Virus record (IMG/VR): IMGVR_UViG_3300045934_000076
Span: 1-63,135 of that record
Length of the DNA stretch: 63,135 bases
DNA from: a virus
Direction: 5' to 3' (one strand)
In this document: piece by piece, positions 2,105 to 63,135 of the stretch
How positions within the stretch are numbered: position 1 is the first letter of the stretch
Layout: each line of letters starts with the position of its first letter
Made by a program: the position numbers and the translations under genes
The notes under the pieces: model-generated
The model's input: only the letters and a program-made list of their open reading frames with translations
Databases searched by the model: none
Told to the model about the DNA's origin: nothing

Positions 2105-2345
2105 CCGGATCGTTTAAAGCCGTTTTAAGGCTCGCAAGGCGGGCGGGTAGGGCAAGGGGCTTAAGGCTCCCGCTTGGTCACTCCCTAGGGCTCCCTGTCA
2201 GCCTAGTTTTAGGCCCCTTCCGGCCCCCTCCTGGCCTAGGAGCGGCTAGCGAGCCCAGGAGAGCCCAATCCGGGGGGATTGGGGCCTGTACCCTGCGGCC
2301 CCTGCGGGCGGCTCGCTGGCGGGCGCGTGGGGCTCAGCCGCCCGT

Positions 2346-2383
2346 GGCACTTGCCACGCGGGCGCGGCACTTGCCATGCGGGC
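2346..2383. repeat. Tandem 18-bp direct repeat, each with a small dyad
   Basis: GGCACTTGCCAYGCGGGC occurs at 2346-2363 and 2366-2383 with one mismatch and a 20-base period. Each unit carries the palindrome GGCA-CT-TGCC. The first is extended to GTGGCA/TGCCAC. An iteron or protein-binding pair is possible. Confidence 0.6.
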
Positions 2384-2467
2384 TCGTGGCGGGACCGGGC
2401 GACGGCAGGCCCCCGGCTCGTGCCGACTGGTCCAGAAGACGCTCGATGAACTTTGTTGTGTGGCCCC

Positions 2468-2495
2468 TTGCGCGCTGGCGCGCTGCGCCTATATT
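2468..2495 (+). promoter_or_regulatory. Predicted sigma70-like promoter
   Basis: A -35 TTGCGC (2468-2473) and -10 TATATT (2490-2495) are separated by 16 bases. They lie 57 bases upstream of the gene at 2552, the only gene before a strong terminator, so a dedicated single-gene unit is likely. Confidence 0.5.
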
Positions 2496-2551
2496 GAAGC
2501 TGCAAGCGCGGCACTCACGCTGCGCCACAGTTCAGAAAGAGAGCAAGCATC

Positions 2552-2917
2552 ATGGCCGAATCCAAGGAGAAGCCGGCGAAGGTCAAGCGGGACCGTCAGG
2601 TCACGCGTCTCACCGACGGCCAGGGCGGGTCGCTCGAGGTGTTCGCCCAGGGCACGAAGGCCGGTCGGTTCGAGAGCTACGCCAAGCACACGGTCCGCGA
2701 CGAGAAGGGCAAGGTCAACAAGGGCGCGTCGAAGGGCTCCGGCATCGCCGGCGACCACGCGACCTTCGACGAGGCCAAGACCGCCGCGAACGGCATCATC
2801 GAGGGCGCGAAGGCCCTCGGCTGGACCGTCAAGTCCAGCGGCGGCGGAGCGGCCGGTCGCAAGGACGCCTTCACGCTCGACAGCCTCCCGAAGCCCGCGA
2901 AGGCCCCCAAGAAGTAG
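2552..2917 (+). CDS. Small basic protein in its own transcription unit
   Basis: A 121-residue, Lys/Gly/Ala-rich, very hydrophilic protein. Lysine-rich termini flank a middle with FESYAKHTVRDEKG and FDEAKTAANGIIEGAKALGW. I do not recognise the family. It has its own promoter and a perfect intrinsic terminator, which suggests strong or differently timed expression. A nucleic-acid-binding role is plausible from charge only. The sequence GAAAGAGAGCAAG precedes the ATG. Confidence 0.75.
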   Translation: MAESKEKPAKVKRDRQVTRLTDGQGGSLEVFAQGTKAGRFESYAKHTVRDEKGKVNKGASKGSGIAGDHATFDEAKTAANGIIEGAKALGWTVKSSGGGAAGRKDAFTLDSLPKPAKAPKK

Positions 2918-2940
2918 GAGCGGCCTCCGTCGCGGTCTCG

Positions 2941-2974
2941 AGCCGCTCCACTCGCACAGTGGAGCGGCTTTTTT
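2941..2974 (+). terminator. Rho-independent terminator
   Basis: A 12-bp perfect stem (AGCCGCTCCACT at 2941-2952 with AGTGGAGCGGCT at 2958-2969) and 5-base loop CGCAC are followed by TTTTTT. It ends the gene at 2552-2917 and sits directly before the next promoter, isolating the two units. Confidence 0.92.
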
Positions 2975-2975
2975 G

Positions 2976-3005
2976 TTGCAATCAGTTGCTAACTTGTGCT
3001 ACAAT
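2976..3005 (+). promoter_or_regulatory. Promoter P1, shared-core family
   Basis: A -35 TTGCAA (2976-2981), 18-base spacer and extended -10 TGC-TACAAT (2997-3005). The spacer and -10 contain GTTGCTAACTTGTGCTA (2985-3001), repeated almost exactly at 15492-15508 and 23610-23626. It starts the long rightward unit of ligase, polymerase and modification genes. Conservation of the spacer suggests a regulator or a dedicated recognition factor acts here. Confidence 0.75.
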
Positions 3006-3019
3006 GCACCTTCACGTCA

Positions 3020-3128
3020 TGCGATCGAAGCCGTCGGGTCACGCGAAAGCGCGGGTGGACTCAAGGCCGGGATACAACTACACTCCCCGGGAGGCTCGAC
3101 GGCTTCGATCGCGCTGCGTGGTGCAGCG
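3020..3128 (+). ncRNA. Structured leader RNA with three-way-junction fold
   Basis: Starting about 10 bases after the expected transcription start, perfect 16-bp arms GCGATCGAAGCCGTCG (3021-3036) and CGACGGCTTCGATCGC (3097-3112) close a 60-base interior. The interior holds a CGC-GAAA-GCG hairpin (3042-3051) and a stem CCGGGA/TCCCCGG (3067-3072, 3084-3090) with an 11-base loop. A further hairpin CGCTGC/GCAGCG (3112-3128) follows, ending 7 bases before the AGGAGGG ribosome site at 3136. The layout is that of a riboswitch-like or protein-binding leader. I could not match it to a known class. Confidence 0.65.
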
Positions 3129-3146
3129 TGTTCAGAGGAGGGCGCG

Positions 3147-3446
3147 ATGTTCTCATGCGAAGCATGCGGAAGGAAGAGCGAGCGCGGCCAGAAGCAGCAT
3201 CGTCGAGTGGTCGAGCAGCGTCGGCGGCAGTACGATCGTGGCCTCGAGATCGTTCGCGAGCTCAAGGTCGGTGAGTGCTGCAAGGACCTACCTCCCGACC
3301 AGCTCCTGACCAAAGCCCACAGTCTGCCGGCGATCACTGGTCGCCTCAGCTGTTCGGGACCCGGTTTCCAGAACGTCAAGCCGCCAAAGCACGTTCAGCA
3401 GCGGCTCGCTGCGTTCCTGCTCGGTGAGGTCGTGAGGAAGTCATGA
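3147..3446 (+). CDS. Zinc-finger-like hypothetical protein, first gene of P1 operon
   Basis: A 99-residue protein with CEAC at 4-7, a very basic segment of many Arg, Lys and Gln (8-32), and Cys-Cys near residue 47. The C-terminal half looks helical. ATG 3147 follows AGGAGGG at 5 bases; longer in-frame extensions run back through the terminator and promoter and are not credible. Its expression would be controlled by the structured leader directly upstream. DNA or RNA binding is likely from composition, but no family is recognised. Confidence 0.7.
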   Translation: MFSCEACGRKSERGQKQHRRVVEQRRRQYDRGLEIVRELKVGECCKDLPPDQLLTKAHSLPAITGRLSCSGPGFQNVKPPKHVQQRLAAFLLGEVVRKS

Positions 3447-5483: not shown

Positions 5484-6418
5484 GTCTCGTAGACCAGTTC
5501 TGCGAGCGTTCGACGCCATTCAGGATCATGGCCGAGCAGTCGCAGGTCTTCCGCGTGCCATTCGAAGTCACTCCCTTCACTCGAGAGCCTGACGGCAAGT
5601 GGGGCTTCTGGTGGAGGGAGTGGGCTGAGTGGAAGATGAAGTTGATTCCGAAGAAGGGCGATGCGTTCGACTCGTCGTGGTGGCGACCTCCCTTCAAGGA
5701 CATGATCATCATGAGCGAGCGCGACGAGCAGGGTCTCATGATGATCTTGAGCCCTCGCGCTGGATTCAACTTCAGCGACGTCACTCTGCCGGGCCACGGG
5801 CAGGTCAAGCCAGACTGGGGATGCATCGTGGCTCAGCTCGGCCTGGATCCCAGAACTCGAGAGCTGATGGTCTTGATGTCGATGCGGGTGTTCTCCGTGG
5901 ATGGATTGCTCCACCTCACGAAGCTCGAAGAGCAGGCCCGCGACACCGTCTCGCTCCAGAAGATCATCACTCCCTACGCCGACGAAGAGCGGATGTACAA
6001 GCACGCTCTCGAGATCTGGAGAGACAATCCCAAGGATCACGAACGCGACGCAGTCAACTCAGTCGCAACTTTCGCGATCGTCTGTGGGCTCCTGTGCTGC
6101 AAGAACGTGCTCACCGAGGAGCGGGCCGCTACGCGCCAGATCCGGCGTGATAGGGAGCGGCGTGGGCTCTTGCCTCTGGTGCGCTGGCACATACTCAAGG
6201 TTCAGGTGGGCGCGCAGCGCAAGCAGCCTCGCAGCGGGCCATCGCTCGGCGGTCCACACGAGCCACTCGCCAGTCACTTCGTTCGAGGTCACTTCAAGAC
6301 CTTCACGAAGGAGAAGCCGCTCCTCGGGAGGGCCGTCGGCACATTCTGGTGGAGTCAGCACGTCGCTGGCCGCGCCGACCGAGTCGTCCTCAAGGACTAC
6401 GAAATCGAGAAGGAGTAG
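5480..6418 (+). CDS. Hypothetical protein with AcrVA2-like C-terminal motif
   Basis: A 312-residue protein starting GTG over the previous stop. The C-terminal end has the pattern H-x-V-R-G-H-F-K-x-F ... PLLGRAVGTFWWSQHVAGR, a signature of many uncharacterised phage and plasmid proteins. It distantly resembles the C-terminal region of the Cas12a inhibitor AcrVA2. The N-terminal 200 residues are unassigned, and a basic Arg-rich linker follows at about 220. An anti-defence role is only a hypothesis, because most proteins with this motif are untested. Confidence 0.7.
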   Translation: MSLVDQFCERSTPFRIMAEQSQVFRVPFEVTPFTREPDGKWGFWWREWAEWKMKLIPKKGDAFDSSWWRPPFKDMIIMSERDEQGLMMILSPRAGFNFSDVTLPGHGQVKPDWGCIVAQLGLDPRTRELMVLMSMRVFSVDGLLHLTKLEEQARDTVSLQKIITPYADEERMYKHALEIWRDNPKDHERDAVNSVATFAIVCGLLCCKNVLTEERAATRQIRRDRERRGLLPLVRWHILKVQVGAQRKQPRSGPSLGGPHEPLASHFVRGHFKTFTKEKPLLGRAVGTFWWSQHVAGRADRVVLKDYEIEKE

Positions 6419-29058: not shown

Positions 29059-29231
29059 ACGCGGAGCAAGAGCTCAACCATGCCCTGTTTGCCCTCGTAA
29101 ATCGTGACACTCCCTGGCGCTTTGTCCAAGAGAAGGGAATGGAGCGATTCATGAAGGCCCTCGAGAAGTACGTTGACGAGCGTGTAAAGAACGCTCTCGA
29201 GGACCTGTCACCGACGCTGTTGGGACTGTGA
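29055..29231 (+). CDS. Small helical protein, 58 aa
   Basis: ATG 29055 overlaps the previous stop. It is predicted wholly helical, with charged heptads (MKALEKYVDERVKNALEDL). The function is unknown. Confidence 0.55.
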   Translation: MNAEQELNHALFALVNRDTPWRFVQEKGMERFMKALEKYVDERVKNALEDLSPTLLGL

Positions 29232-30094
29232 GCGAGCACCCTCCAGACTGCGCTTGCCCCGACTGCGACTGGACCGATGTGAGTAAGGATCTTGGGATCG
29301 GGATCACTCCTGTCATCACGATCGACTCGGCTCCCTTCATGAATCAGCTCAAGCTGATCGCGAAGGAGTTCGATGGATGGAGGTTACTTGGTTTTGACCA
29401 TCCGTGCTCTGACCCTCCATCTCATCCTAACTGCCGATGTGTTCTAGTTCCTGTCGCCGATCCTCCAAAGCCGAATGAAGGACGCGAAGCTGGCCTGAAA
29501 GTCTTGGAGGGACTCGGCAAGCCCAGGACCGAGCCGATCAAGCTTCCAAGGATAGAGGCCGAGCTGAGCTGGCTCGTGAGCGACTATCCCTTCGATGACA
29601 TCTACATCCCCGATCCCGAGTTCTTCGTTCCTCAGATCCCTCCGCCTCCAATGGTTCGCCGATGCAAGCACTGCGGACAAGAACCAGGAACTGATCGCCA
29701 TCCCGACTGTCGCTCTAACCCTGATCGCGGAGCGGATGGAGCGAATCACGAGGATGTTGTCTCAGTGGACGCTGCCTCCATCATCGGCATGGATGTTGGA
29801 GAAGAGTCGAGCTTCTCCATCGGCATCAAGATCCCTCCTGGCATGGCTGAAGCTTTCAAGAAGATGGCTGACGTCGGCAAGGATCTTGGAGCCTCGTTTG
29901 ATGCGATGGCCGACGTCGGCAAGGATCTTGGAGCCTCGTTTGATGCGATGGCTGTCAAGATTGGAGAGATGGTGAGCGCACTCACAGGAAAGAACGCTCC
30001 GAAGACCTGGCCTCAAGTCTACAAGGAGCACAAGTACCTCAAGCGGATGGCGAGCAGACGCAAGCATCACGCTCACAGGAGACGCAAGCGATGA
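29228..30094 (+). CDS. Hypothetical protein with Cys motifs and 14-residue tandem repeat
   Basis: A 288-residue protein with a GTG start. CACPDC (8-13), SHPNCRC at about 65 and CKHCG with HPDC at about 145-160 suggest zinc sites. SHPNCRC resembles the end of the Mu F-like domain of the portal fusion in this genome (AHPNCRC). A 42-base tandem repeat encodes MADVGKDLGASFDA twice. The C-terminus is very basic (RRKHHAHRRRKR). It is perhaps nucleic-acid-binding; no family is recognised. Confidence 0.62.
   Translation: MSEHPPDCACPDCDWTDVSKDLGIGITPVITIDSAPFMNQLKLIAKEFDGWRLLGFDHPCSDPPSHPNCRCVLVPVADPPKPNEGREAGLKVLEGLGKPRTEPIKLPRIEAELSWLVSDYPFDDIYIPDPEFFVPQIPPPPMVRRCKHCGQEPGTDRHPDCRSNPDRGADGANHEDVVSVDAASIIGMDVGEESSFSIGIKIPPGMAEAFKKMADVGKDLGASFDAMADVGKDLGASFDAMAVKIGEMVSALTGKNAPKTWPQVYKEHKYLKRMASRRKHHAHRRRKR
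29864..29947 (+). repeat. In-frame 42-bp tandem repeat
   Basis: Units 29864-29905 and 29906-29947 are nearly identical (one silent difference near the start), and a third partial unit starts at 29948. They extend a predicted amphipathic helix by 14 residues. Confidence 0.9.
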
Positions 30095-56200: not shown

Positions 56201-56394
56201 TCGTTCAACTGTCAACAGTAGGACAGCTCATCGACACGTTCATCGGCGACAAGATCAGCCTCTACGCGAGCAAGGCTCTGTCACCGACGGGCACGCTCAG
56301 CGGTGAGGTGTTCAGGATCTTCAACCTCACTCACGACTACCTCACAGGCATGACGACCTGCGAGGCGGTCGAGAACGTTCAAATCCTGACATGA
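53281..56394 (+). CDS. Large tail-tip/host-interaction protein
   Basis: A 1037-residue protein, the largest gene. It has a beta-rich N-terminal half with a carbohydrate-binding-like region (about 155-345: jelly-roll pattern with WYTFYYKTDPDMPVGVFPAI). The module seen also in the preceding gene occurs at about 555-605 (NPTAVTTSKRHGLATNDFVTI, FTVAVNVSVAGTTG), followed by mixed domains. As the last tail gene it probably contains receptor-binding functions. Its exact correspondence to J-like hub proteins is uncertain. Confidence 0.72.
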   Translation: MPSASDNKIGFGRTGLLGNLRTHGDFQRDNRARRQGYVDLVLGKAITKTGTYLGSIRYTDLSVDSALTWAGAIRPIVGMEAMRTPRALSFAESLASMAAGTFFYDETQMVKGGTLTVYWWLPDSSNPSTSEEFVIHLMFNIGTRGERHPLFLPERFVDGGFAYWTSPTVPKFWTPSGVAASGVRLDQDTDAAPSSKDPYSLKISPGASGLPNASDGGVLIDGATSPPGFNNGNLGAGRETWYTFYYKTDPDMPVGVFPAIRVRAGSGQFMNADGESFSVPPNNVPLPLTNGQWRRCIFVFRNPSDTTSLSIHLRLRNDSGGTVTTGWVKYDGASLRTVLRRVYYQPGLEIDSLPVLELKSQSVAFGAKTIGQGKVSILDGNRALTKAFASLLPLRKPVKISVGGAFSNKEFLRRDDWRTAFLGLSQTPLFKTQEGRIVIDLEDSRTITRSRVLEKAYRIADLSGLDREAEGTPKNYVFGDTIEQAFKYTRVGVNSNGYGLYEALDPAVPVADNVNVGLPTGYSAIIFPNEEMADKNVNGYDLSNTITGNTAANPTAVTTSKRHGLATNDFVTISGSNSTPNINGRRQVTVTSDFTFTVAVNVSVAGTTGKVVSHADYDYSLNNTRWEIKRDLHNMAFDKQGQEIGLGCRFYYMNETYLNPTFVDLDLSGPPWKVALDLQAAIRANDADNNTSVVYAENTHKITVSRTGGKGVFIDLYSVSSVALPNIDSVSMRSWELLGYDVRGDHGGGATTSWTAEKPLFTDVDKDHIIRWFVGGYYDDSLGSICGVANAAIDNPPAIYSWLWQKHLRQSPSTINVNSFADARNLSFSGDFVQMLMVLLNQDDDVFKAFGLLDQMGLMDTVLDGDGVLQCRKHSDSAPVVRVLRDRDYQSFEMRYDPKILFREVRVWGSYRQSLQKFETYLDSPAFTDAAAPIKTGATDIFNLYGYLSRASITGGLCLLPNYYARLFKKVPRIVQLSTVGQLIDTFIGDKISLYASKALSPTGTLSGEVFRIFNLTHDYLTGMTTCEAVENVQILT

Positions 56395-56705
56395 ACTGTG
56401 ACGCGTGCCGAGGAGCGTGTTGCGAAACGCTCCACGTCCTTGGCGATGCGATCGCAAGACAGAGCCCGACCTCCTCGGAGTTCATCCGCGTGTTTGCCGG
56501 AGCGGAGGATGGTCACGGTGACATCGAGCTGAAAGTTCGCTGCTCGAAGCTCACGAGTGAGGGCTTGTGCAGCATCTACGAGCGGCGACCACTCATCTGC
56601 CGACTGTTCAAGCCCGGGAGCCCCGACTGCATCGCGGCCGTCAAGGCTCGTAGGTCGCCAGCACAGCGCGCCAGCATTCGTGAGGCTGGAGACCCCTCGC
56701 TGTGA
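56391..56705 (+). CDS. YkgJ/UPF0153-like Cys-cluster protein
   Basis: A 104-residue protein coupled by ATGA to the tail protein. CDACRGACC (3-11), then CSKL ... GLCSIYERRPLICRLFKPGSPDC, reproduces the Cys spacing of YkgJ (UPF0153) proteins, which bind a metal or iron-sulfur centre. Its role in a phage late operon is unknown. It ends the structural transcript. Confidence 0.75.
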   Translation: MNCDACRGACCETLHVLGDAIARQSPTSSEFIRVFAGAEDGHGDIELKVRCSKLTSEGLCSIYERRPLICRLFKPGSPDCIAAVKARRSPAQRASIREAGDPSL

Positions 56706-56945
56706 TCCCCTGCTCCGCCTGAACTTCGGCCCTTCGCTGCCCTGGTAGCAGGGGCGGGCAGGCCCCCGCAACCGTGACCCTGGAGCGGCCCCGCTAGGTC
56801 CGGCTGCGCGCACGGGTTCGCTCGTGGCCCCGTGGCCCCCAATCGCGACTTGCGAGGCCCTAGGAGCCTGCAAATAGTTGACTTCTACAATCCGCCGGAT
56901 TTGAGCGAACCCGAACTATATCACCCTTGATTTTCAACAACTTAC

Positions 56946-56966
56946 GTGAGTATTCAAAATACTCAC
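56946..56966. promoter_or_regulatory. Operator-like dyad abutting a promoter
   Basis: GTGAGTATT (56946-56954) and AATACTCAC (56958-56966) form a perfect 9-bp inverted repeat with centre CAA. The dyad ends one base before the -35 at 56967, a typical activator or repressor position. Confidence 0.6.
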
Positions 56967-56995
56967 TTGCGCGAACGGGGCCTTCCACCTACTAT
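56967..56995 (+). promoter_or_regulatory. Predicted promoter of the 57.5 kb operon
   Basis: A -35 TTGCGC (56967-56972) and -10 TACTAT (56990-56995) have ideal 17-base spacing. The -35 equals that of the promoter at 2468. The transcript would begin near 57002 and carry a leader of about 480 bases. Confidence 0.55.
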
Positions 56996-57401
56996 ATGTT
57001 CACAACACGAGCGCAGCGGGCAGGCAAGGCAGGCCACCTAAGCAAGCGCGGCAAGGCAAGGGAAGCCCCGGCGCACCTCGGAAGCGACCGGCCCCCAAGC
57101 CCCAAGGTAGCACCCGCGCCCGGTGAGGGGTCAACGCGCGGTGCCAGTCGCTACTCCACAAGGCAAGCAACACGCGCAGCCGCTAGGCGCGACGGGCCGT
57201 CACGGCCGGTTGCTCACCCCGAGGAGCGCGGCGCATCCGGGCCGGTTGCACCATGTTGTTCGCTGTGATGGCGATGGGGTGACCGGGGGTGAGTCGAACA
57301 CCCGCAAGCGAGGAAGGGGCCGCCGCCAAAGATGCTTTCAAGTGCGGTCACCGGGCACAGCCGCCAAAGCGCTCAAGCGCTGATGCCACTCGCAACGTAC
57401 A

Positions 57402-57473
57402 CAAGGCGGGCTATCGCAGCTCGCCCTTACGTTAGAGCCGTCGAGCTTGTTCGACGGCTCCACCGTGAGGAGG
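57402..57473 (+). ncRNA. Two-hairpin leader element, copy 1
   Basis: Hairpin A GGCGGGC/GCTCGCC (one G-U) with loop TATCGCA, spacer CTTACGTTA, and hairpin B GAGCCGTCGA/TCGACGGCTC with a 6-base loop, then CACCGTGAGGAGG as ribosome site 6 bases before ATG 57480. Copy 2 at 57782 has the same layout with compensatory changes in the stems. Both hairpins immediately precede the ribosome site, so control of translation is likely. Confidence 0.7.
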
Positions 57474-57479
57474 TTTTAC

Positions 57480-57779
57480 ATGGCAAAGCGTATCAAGGCT
57501 CGTCGTGCTTACCAGCTCGAGTTCACGCGCAGTGGCGATGGTCACACCGTCAAGTACGGTGAGCCGGTCACTTCGCTGGCCGCTTGTGCGGCCCTGCTCG
57601 ACAAGGCCGAAGTCGAGTGGCAGGAGTGGTTCGACAAGTACTCCGACAACGACTACGAGCCGCTCGAAGGGCAGGCCGAGTGGCTTGACCACTACGAGGG
57701 CTGCGACGTCTACGCCCGCTGCACCGACGGTCGGCTCTACGCCTTCAACGATGAGGACGGTTGGGACCTCATCTCGTAA
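57480..57779 (+). CDS. Acidic hypothetical protein, first gene of the operon
   Basis: A 99-residue protein with a basic N-terminus, then EFTRSGDGHTVKYGEPVTS and an acidic C-terminal half rich in Trp, Tyr and Asp (WQEWFDKYSDNDYEPLEG). GAGGAGG precedes ATG 57480. It has its own two-hairpin leader on both sides. No family is recognised. Confidence 0.65.
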   Translation: MAKRIKARRAYQLEFTRSGDGHTVKYGEPVTSLAACAALLDKAEVEWQEWFDKYSDNDYEPLEGQAEWLDHYEGCDVYARCTDGRLYAFNDEDGWDLIS

Positions 57780-57781
57780 CG

Positions 57782-57850
57782 CAAGGCGGGCTTCGGCCCG
57801 CCCTTACGTTAGAGCCGCCGAAATTCTTCGGCGGCTCCACCGTGAGGAGG
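57782..57850 (+). ncRNA. Two-hairpin leader element, copy 2
   Basis: Hairpin A GGCGGGC-TTCG-GCCCGCC, spacer CTTACGTTA, and hairpin B GAGCCGCCGAA/TTCGGCGGCTC with loop ATTC, followed by CACCGTGAGGAGG. Compared with copy 1, a C-G pair in stem B is replaced by U-A, keeping pairing. Spacer and ribosome site are identical. It directly follows the stop of the gene at 57480 and precedes the SWIM gene. Confidence 0.75.
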
Positions 57851-57855
57851 TTGTG

Positions 57856-58044
57856 ATGGCTATCAACAAGTTCGCGTTCGTGACCAAGTTCAAGTCGTCT
57901 TCGTCGGACCGTTACTACAAGGTGAAGGTCAACGTGGTGACCGGCGACCTGTCGTGCGACTGCCCTGGCTGGACCTTCAAGCGCGAAGGCAAGGCGCGGG
58001 ACTGCAAGCACCTCCGCCGTCTGCGCACCGGAGTGGCGGCGTGA
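57856..58044 (+). CDS. SWIM zinc-finger protein
   Basis: A 62-residue protein. CDCPGWTF followed by CKHLRRL gives the C-x-C-x(n)-C-x-H zinc site of SWIM domains, usually involved in DNA or protein binding. It is nearly only the finger, with a basic N-terminus. It is controlled by the second two-hairpin leader. Confidence 0.75.
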   Translation: MAINKFAFVTKFKSSSSDRYYKVKVNVVTGDLSCDCPGWTFKREGKARDCKHLRRLRTGVAA

Positions 58045-58172
58045 CCGCCCGCACTCCTCGTAAGCCGCGTCGCATCAAGCGCGGTCTCGAGCTCAAGGTT
58101 CTGAAGAGCTGGCTTCGTTCAACCGACTACACCGAGCAGGAGCTGCGCGCTCTGCTCACGAAAGGCAAGTGA
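58041..58172 (+). CDS. Small basic protein, 43 aa
   Basis: A GTG start overlaps the previous stop. A very basic N-terminus (RTPRKPRRIKRG) and a helical C-terminus suggest nucleic-acid contact. The function is unknown. Confidence 0.55.
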   Translation: MTARTPRKPRRIKRGLELKVLKSWLRSTDYTEQELRALLTKGK

Positions 58173-58175
58173 GTC

Positions 58176-58454
58176 ATGAGGAATATCCGCCTGGTCGCTT
58201 TCGAGGAGTTCACTGTCGAGGACAACGGCAACATCGTCATCGAGGCCTCGCAGTACTCGCCCGTCCCCATGCGCTTCGATGAGCTCGAGGAGGGCGATGC
58301 TCCTCGGCAGGGCATCTTCGTTCAGCTGGAGCCCGGTCGCGTTCAGCGCTACGCCGTCACCAAGGCCCGTCGCAATGGCGACGACGAGATCCTGGCCTGG
58401 GAGTTGCGCGCCATCGACGGCGCTGGCCCGCTCATGGTCGTCATCAACGACTGA
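58176..58454 (+). CDS. Hypothetical protein, 92 aa
   Basis: A beta-rich small protein (RLVAFEEFTVEDNGNIVIEA, GIFVQLEPGRVQRYAV) ending in a hydrophobic strand LMVVIND. No family is recognised. The following 72-base gap has a hairpin TGCGCT/AGCGCA (58477-58495). Confidence 0.6.
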   Translation: MRNIRLVAFEEFTVEDNGNIVIEASQYSPVPMRFDELEEGDAPRQGIFVQLEPGRVQRYAVTKARRNGDDEILAWELRAIDGAGPLMVVIND

Positions 58455-58526
58455 GCATCAACATCAACCTTCGCCCTGCGCTGCAAGCCAGCGCACACGG
58501 CTCAACCTTAAGTAAGGAGAACTCAC

Positions 58527-59768
58527 ATGGTGGTAGGCAAGCAGCATGAGATCGGTTCTTGCGACGCTGACAAGAAGACCCGGCATCTCATCACGTGCAA
58601 GCGTTGCGGTACGCAGTCGCTGATGTGGCATCACTGCAACGTCAACGGCGATGCGAACGCGCTCTACGTCGCCACGAAGACCGGGTACAAGCAGTGGGAT
58701 GCGGACACCATGAACCCTCACCGCTGCACGGGTCGCATGCAAACGATCCCCGAGCCCCTGGCCCCGGTCACGGACGAGTCGAAGCTTCGTGAGCTGGCCG
58801 AGGAGGTGGCGGGCAGCGTCGCCCGCAAGGCTCTCGAGGGCGCGCACAAGGAGCTCGGTAGTAAGTTCGACGAGTTCGTCCTGACGGTCACGAGCGGCCT
58901 CAACGATGCGCTGATGTCGCGCCTCGAGGAGCTGGCGCTCCCCGCCAAGACCCTGACCATCGAGCTGCTCGGCGACGACGGCGAGATCCGCCGCGTCGAG
59001 GGCGCGCACGCTCAAATGCCCGAGCTGCTGTATTGGGCCAACTCGAAGGACATGCACGGCTATCGCTGGCCGGTGATGCTCTTCGGCAAGCCGGGCGTCA
59101 GCAAGTCTTTCTCCACGAAGCAGGCCGCCGACGCGATGGGCCTCAGCTTCGGGCTCATCTCGCTCAACCCGCAGACCCCCGAGTCGCGGCTCTTCGGGTT
59201 CATCGATGCTGGCGGCAAGTATCACCGCACGCTCTTCCGTGAAGCGTTCGAGAACGGTGGCGTCTTCCTCATCGATGAGATCGACAACGCCAACGACGCG
59301 CTGCTGACCTCGCTCAACTCGTGCCTCGCCAACGGTCATGGCGCGTTTCCCGATGGGCGCATCGAGCGTCACGCCGACTTCGTCTGCGTCGCTACCGCTA
59401 ATACGCCAGGGCGGGGCGGCGATGCCAATCACAGCGGTCGTCGGCAGCTCGACGCCGCCACCATCAACCGGTTCGCGGTCATCGAGTGGAAGAATGACGA
59501 CGAACTGGAGATGCGCATCGCGACTGCCATCAACGAGAAGGCCGGTCGTCTGTGGCTCGAGTGGATCCGGAAGGTGCGGGTCTACTGCGAGGCCCATCAC
59601 CCGCGCGTCATCGTGTCGCCGCGCTCCACCTACATGGGCGCGAAGGCGCTGCTCGATTCGCCGTTCACCATCGAACAGATCGCCGACATGACCCTGTTCA
59701 AGGGGCTCGACAAGGATACCAAAGCTAAGATCCTGTCGGCCTGCCCGTTCCCCGCCGTCTCGAAGTAG
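58527..59768 (+). CDS. MoxR/CobS-type AAA+ ATPase with N-terminal zinc finger
   Basis: A 413-residue protein. The N-terminal 45 residues hold CKRCG and His/Cys that may bind zinc, as in CobS-like proteins. A helical linker follows, then the AAA+ core: Walker A GKPGVSKS at about 190, Walker B VFLIDEIDNAND at about 246, sensor ATANTPG, and an arginine region RRQLDAATINRF. Such ATPases usually work with a VWA-domain partner to insert metals or remodel complexes. The next gene fits that partner. Confidence 0.82.
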   Translation: MVVGKQHEIGSCDADKKTRHLITCKRCGTQSLMWHHCNVNGDANALYVATKTGYKQWDADTMNPHRCTGRMQTIPEPLAPVTDESKLRELAEEVAGSVARKALEGAHKELGSKFDEFVLTVTSGLNDALMSRLEELALPAKTLTIELLGDDGEIRRVEGAHAQMPELLYWANSKDMHGYRWPVMLFGKPGVSKSFSTKQAADAMGLSFGLISLNPQTPESRLFGFIDAGGKYHRTLFREAFENGGVFLIDEIDNANDALLTSLNSCLANGHGAFPDGRIERHADFVCVATANTPGRGGDANHSGRRQLDAATINRFAVIEWKNDDELEMRIATAINEKAGRLWLEWIRKVRVYCEAHHPRVIVSPRSTYMGAKALLDSPFTIEQIADMTLFKGLDKDTKAKILSACPFPAVSK

Positions 59769-62815: not shown

Positions 62816-63132
62816 TGTCACGTCAACTTCGTGCTCTGCAGGTCGCCGAGAAGCAGCTCGACGGTGTGATGGGCATCCTGCGCGAGTTCACCTCGGAGAT
62901 GCCGTCCACCGTCAACTACATCGATCAAGCCTGGAATGCTGTCTCCAGCATGGCCATCGCACTGGAGCGCTACGAGGCGCGAGGTCCCATGGAGGCATTC
63001 GACGCGACACATCAACTCGAGGTCTTCGAGAAGCGCGTCGGGCTCAAGCTTCATACGTGCGAGGACTGTCGTGGGCAGTTCCTCGAGAGCAAGCTCGCAG
63101 GCCATACTTGCCTGCCAAGACTGGGAGAGTAG
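62815..63132 (+). CDS. Small hypothetical protein with C-terminal Cys/His motif (junction gene)
   Basis: A 105-residue protein from ATG 62815 (GAGAGGAG upstream). It is helical for 75 residues, then CEDC and HTC near the end as a possible zinc site. Its last 78 codons are repeated at the window start. On the circle it continues directly into the gene at 240. Confidence 0.72.
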   Translation: MSRQLRALQVAEKQLDGVMGILREFTSEMPSTVNYIDQAWNAVSSMAIALERYEARGPMEAFDATHQLEVFEKRVGLKLHTCEDCRGQFLESKLAGHTCLPRLGE

Positions 63133-63135
63133 TCA
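62896..63135. repeat. Right copy of 240-base terminal direct repeat
   Basis: Identical to bases 1-240 except T at 63023 versus C at 128. It joins the two ends into a circle of 62,895 unique bases. Confidence 0.95.

Follow-up and report, generated by a model that had tools for sequence, protein, structure and literature searches.

Two adjacent genes of an uncultured phage are each preceded by a copy of the same structured leader, in which a short hairpin (stem A) is followed by a longer, rod-shaped hairpin whose 3′ arm runs into the Shine–Dalgarno (SD) sequence. Both the repeat and its fold exceed what is expected by chance. The reading that we tentatively favour, at a probability of about 0.42, is that of a cis-acting mRNA element present in two diverged copies, which would control processing or stability, or else initiation, of two cistrons.

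The duplicated leader and its genomic setting

The window, by which we mean the whole stretch of 63,135 bases analysed (virus record IMGVR_UViG_3300045934_000076), carries a 240 bp terminal direct repeat (1–240 = 62896–63135) and for this reason looks like a complete genome; amongst the tailed-phage genes encoded are those for a terminase, portal, tail tape measure, primase-helicase and DNA polymerase. A non-coding stretch of 775 nt follows the gene at 56391–56705, with leader copy 1 (57400–57482, + strand) at its end, forming a structured unit that extends to the ATG of gene 1. This gene (57480–57779, + strand) specifies an acidic protein of 99 aa (pI 4.5) that falls into no family. Leader copy 2 (57780–57858, + strand) begins directly after the stop codon of gene 1 (57777–57779), and downstream of it lies gene 2 (57856–58044, + strand), which specifies a basic, SWIM-like zinc finger of 62 aa (CxC-x13-CxH, pI 10.0) whose match to the Pfam SWIM family (E-value 0.0012, 18.7 bits) is slightly below the cut-off of 19.6. 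The description of the controlled genes as encoding an acidic protein and a SWIM finger, given in an earlier note on this DNA, is thus supported. The two genes are non-homologous, and a codon-usage score confirmed both in their expected frames whilst scoring the leaders as non-coding. No sigma-70 promoters or intrinsic terminators were found (0 terminator-like sites in 56700–58600); a reading of the leader itself as an intrinsic terminator is disfavoured, since it has no U tract and its stem is followed by CACCG. Within the non-coding stretch upstream of leader 1 we also observed a perfect, operator-like 9 bp palindrome at 56946–56966 (GTGAGTATT-CAA-AATACTCAC).

Alignment of the two leaders, which lie 377 nt apart and each directly upstream of a start codon, gave 79 letter-to-letter columns with 11 substitutions and two indels, of 3 nt and 1 nt; repeat D2 comprises 57 nt at 89 % identity. 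The 60 nt flanks outside the leaders are unrelated (23–27 % identical), such that the borders of the repeat are those of the leader. These edges, together with the folds, support the earlier description of a duplicated structured leader preceding two genes. Unfiltered searches of the window with models R1 and R2 recovered only the two leader copies (109 and 101.6 bits, respectively, with R2). The next match after these was at 1925–1967 (E-value 0.019), and a candidate third leader at 58455–58526, before the AAA ATPase gene, was rejected as weak (7.8 bits with R1).

In copy 1, stem A (57405–57425, + strand; GGCGGGC / GCTCGCC) has 7 bp, including one G-U, and a loop of 7 (or 8 bp and a loop of 5), whilst in copy 2 (57785–57802, + strand; GGCGGGC-TTCG-GCCCGCC) it has 7 bp and a cUUCGg tetraloop. 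The rod that follows (57426–57469 and 57803–57846, + strand), detected both by a repeat finder and by folding, has 21 nt arms in each copy. Its outer stem of 6–7 bp pairs CTTACG (57426–57431 and 57803–57808) with CGTGAG (57464–57469 and 57841–57846); a 3×3 internal loop, TTA/CAC, could form a central U-A pair; and stem B, of 10–11 bp, reads GAGCCGTCGA(G)/(T)TCGACGGCTC in copy 1 and, as 11 bp, GAGCCGCCGAA/TTCGGCGGCTC in copy 2, the 11th pair being G-U in the former and A-U in the latter. The outer stem had been missed by the earlier note: the spacer CTTACGTTA (57426–57434 and 57803–57811) and the ribosome site CACCGTGAGGAGG (57461–57473 and 57838–57850), both of them exactly where it had placed them, are the two arms of one hairpin. 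Compared with 200 shuffled sequences, the folds reached z-scores of − 4.93 (copy 1) and − 6.00 (copy 2), with 0 of 200 as good in either case. Furthermore, when the 85 nt upstream regions of the 83 SD-led starts on the + strand were compared, the two leaders were the most stable.

In both copies the SD sequence is AGGAGG (57468–57473 for gene 1 and 57845–57850 for the SWIM gene, + strand), situated 5–6 nt from the ATG; the 3′ arm of the outer stem forms the first half of CGTGAGGAGG, so that the first SD bases lie inside the stem. Against a textbook anti-SD sequence, the calculated SD duplexes are very strong (− 13.4 and − 13.8 kcal/mol). Modelling at 37 °C gave the first SD bases an unpaired probability of ≤ 0.02 in both copies, and that of the GAG in the SD region remained at ≤ 0.06 from 10 to 55 °C, for which reason an RNA thermometer is disfavoured. 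SD accessibility of the leaders is not exceptional relative to the other starts of the phage. When flanking sequence was added to the fold, the outer stem had a predicted probability of ∼1.0 in copy 2 and 0.45 in copy 1, where the spacer can pair instead with an AACGUA further upstream; as the alternative fold also pairs GUGAG, the first SD bases of copy 1 would be paired either way.

Among the best rods of the genome, three are intergenic with 21 nt arms, namely the two leader rods and one at 1924–1968. The latter, with a loop of 3, is the strongest rod hairpin of the genome and follows the gene ending at 1895; its size equals that of the leader rods, although no SD follows it. Several other repeats were observed. 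Perfect 17 nt inverted copies, CCTGCCCGCCCCTGCTA and TAGCAGGGGCGGGCAGG, occur at 1917–1933 and 56746–56762, each directly following the gene that closes a block. The sequence GTTGCTAACTTGTGCTA, a possible phage promoter motif, is found at 2985, 15492 and 23610 (two of them exact, the third with 2 mismatches), apparently between genes, and just before one of these motifs is a good candidate for an intrinsic terminator (2940–2970), consisting of a 13 bp GC hairpin followed by TTTTTG. Lastly, a 42 nt tandem duplication (98 % identical) lies at 29863–29946, within the predicted gene 29228–30094.

Selection on pairing and the search for relatives

Standard pairing holds for each of the 24 pairs in either copy; only 3 of the 11 substitutions fall in the 46 paired columns, and none of them breaks a pair. 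In 300,000 simulations in which the 11 substitutions were placed at random, all pairs were kept in 1.0 % of trials (p 0.010) and three or fewer stem changes were seen in 2.8 % (p 0.028); at least one compensatory pair arose by chance in 21 % of trials, whilst the retention of all pairs jointly with a compensatory change had a p of 0.005. The exchange of U-A in copy 1 for C-G in copy 2 within stem B, reported in the earlier note, is real in the alignment, and stem A does keep its pairing through a G-U whilst its loop changes, as had also been reported. The conclusion drawn there, that covariation shows the fold to be under selection, is too strong, as there is a single double-sided change, of a kind that is not unusual by chance. 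Every wobble pair, of which copy 1 has three and copy 2 one, is a G-U when read on the sense strand, and A-C does not occur; this is a mild argument for RNA as the level at which pairing matters. Taken from sequence comparison, the evidence for selection on leader pairing is moderate, two close copies in one genome amounting to a single comparison; a DNA palindrome or hairpin-templated mutation could also yield paired changes.

IMG/VR was scanned with four kinds of DNA pattern and GTDB genomes with one. In IMG/VR, an exact 14-mer gave 52 matches, none with the leader layout, and gapped patterns gave 2, 0 and 25 matches, all attributed to chance on the basis of layout and fold; the 37 pattern matches in GTDB genomes were all judged to be chance or a REP array. 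Neither blastn against GenBank phages and plasmids (no match with E < 0.2) nor Rfam (no family at gathering threshold in the window, and, near the leaders, sub-threshold matches only) identified a relative, and no match in the collections searched keeps the leader layout before a start codon. Nor did synteny reveal such a leader at the loci of SWIM relatives (L055–L059), at that of a gene 1 relative (L060) or in Tunturiibacter phage Tunturi_4. Gene 1 and the SWIM protein had no match among GenBank phages, and the terminase, AAA ATPase and DUF7192 proteins matched distant phages only (at most about 52 % identity); the orphan status of the leader is therefore in keeping with that of the encoded proteins, which have no or distant phage relatives. 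Further covarying homologues, proposed in the earlier note as a check, were found in none of the collections searched; since the phage stands there as a singleton, the covariation claim is not thereby refuted. In Tunturi_4 (L100) the homologous AAA ATPase gene is preceded, at a distance of 43 nt, by an unrelated rod with 21 nt arms (5813–5859), which itself follows an unannotated gap of ∼2.4 kb.

The best outside model match was a REP array in an Opitutia MAG (L082), found because the pattern had selected it. This REP-like hairpin array (2310–3260) surrounds a small ORF resembling a REP-associated transposase (2526–3044), identified by eye. By virtue of that selection its hairpins resemble those of the leaders (CTTACG..CGTGAGG arms); the array, however, is multi-copy and away from start codons, whereas the leaders have two copies, both at start codons, and no transposase. 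On these grounds a mobile repeat of the REP/MITE type is disfavoured.

Possible functions of the leaders

With one copy in the 5′ UTR of gene 1 and the other at the junction of genes 1 and 2, the rod would act on the mRNA, most plausibly, by analogy with T7, as an RNase III-type site of processing or stability that gives each cistron a defined 5′ end. We place processing or stability first because the rod matches a T7 RNase III substrate in size and is situated between the cistrons in a polycistronic region. T7 R1.1 is an RNase III substrate of ∼60 nt that is cut once (PMC8708148, PMC4858673). Like such hairpins, the leader rods are intergenic and of similar size, their helix is interrupted, and each precedes the following cistron of a polycistronic RNA. 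RNase III sites in phage polycistronic RNA have some two turns of helix, in which an internal loop may or may not occur, and the leader counterpart is 21 nt arms with a 3×3 loop. The match to T7 sites is one of size and placement only. The rod may in addition damp initiation, as the first SD bases would be tied up until the outer stem was opened or cut, and use of the same element twice would place two adjacent cistrons under the same control. This unmasking step is weak: modelled removal of the 5′ arm in copy 1 moved mean SD accessibility only from 0.30 to 0.33, leaving the SD unexposed, whilst in copy 2 it rose from 0.17 to 0.44–0.48, a partial exposure. Modelling thus lends little support to SD release after cutting. 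Two further points weigh against the mechanism, namely an upstream pairing that rivals the outer stem of copy 1 and an SD accessibility that is ordinary for this phage.

That the same element overlaps the SD before two adjacent genes would also suit a translational operator, whereby a phage or host protein binds the rod or hairpin A of both leaders, blocks the ribosome and co-represses both genes, in the manner of classical phage RNA operators. The spacer and internal loop are conserved in sequence as well as structure, and the product of gene 2, being a small, basic zinc finger, is a candidate for the binding protein. SWIM fingers are, however, not specific for RNA, and there are no relatives in which protein and site could be seen to co-vary; we regard this reading as possible, if on balance unlikely.

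The presence of just two copies, 377 nt apart, would equally be expected if a strong ribosome-binding site with a stabilizing 5′ hairpin had recently been duplicated locally and retained for mRNA stability or initiation strength. Quasi-palindromes self-correct, and the paired changes could then be hairpin-templated and free of selection, one compensatory pair being in any case not unusual (0.21 by chance). The retention of all pairs (p 0.01) and the depletion of stem changes (p 0.028) speak against such a passive repeat, as does the maintenance of the UUCG loop and the whole leader whilst the unrelated flanks diverged, and we consider it unlikely.

Rather less probable is action at the level of DNA, with a DNA-binding protein recognizing the inverted repeats as operator- or promoter-type sites. 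Such a role has been proposed for the extended start-associated sequences (ESAS) of cluster K mycobacteriophages, which are likewise located at gene starts (PMC3203893). The near-palindromic 21 nt arms do pair on the other strand too, with model R2 also matching the minus strand at 30–32 bits. The loop of stem A, however, differs by 3 nt, which shifts the spacing of half-sites, the G-U pairs fit the sense RNA strand only, the end of the repeat coincides exactly with the ribosome-binding site, and all leader pairs are kept whereas the arms of ESAS show no compensation.

A more elaborate version of RNA-level control, in which hairpin A and the SD-masking rod form a bipartite switch, the CTTACGTTA spacer alternatively pairing with an upstream YAACG, and which coordinates the two cistrons, possibly via the SWIM product, would constitute a novel class of translational control element in phages; we hold it to be improbable. 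A conserved peptide encoded by the leaders is nearly excluded: the frame RPYVRA(V/A)E(L/I)(V/L)RRLHREEV is open in both copies, with a 3 nt indel in loop A and five changes in the stem B region that are synonymous (2) or conservative (3), but its codon score is − 0.11/− 0.18 against + 0.15 to + 0.34 for phage genes, in one copy it overruns gene 1 whilst in the other it is out of frame with gene 1, and it has no Pfam or PDB match.

Relation to known systems

The nearest described case is that of the SAS and ESAS elements of cluster K mycobacteriophages, where non-structural genes carry a repeated element with inverted repeats directly on their ribosome-binding sites (PMC3203893). The 13 bp consensus of SAS (start-associated sequences), GGGATAGGAGCCC, lies only a few bases from the start codon and is present in 11–19 copies per genome, whilst ESAS consists of 17 bp imperfect inverted repeats that, with arms lacking compensation, were judged unlikely to be RNA hairpins (PMC3203893). 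The leaders share with these the principle of a repeated inverted-repeat element at phage gene starts, but are not members: there are 2 copies, the sequence is another one (CACCGTGAGGAGG at the SD) and all pairs are kept, such that consensus, copy number and pairing behaviour all differ.

Leader hairpins that sequester the SD are known in phages and bacteria as translational operators and RNA thermometers. As in these, the 3′ arm of the leader hairpin overlaps the SD; the difference is that only the first 2–3 SD bases are held in the stem, with no melting predicted up to 55 °C. The leader pair is thus an orphan within a known kind, that of structured phage 5′ leaders. Generalization should await the discovery of relatives. 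Beyond T7, T4 and lambda, the catalogue of phage leader RNAs controlling translation or processing is poor, and this pair provides a compact, testable case, with an internal replicate, in an uncultured singleton phage.
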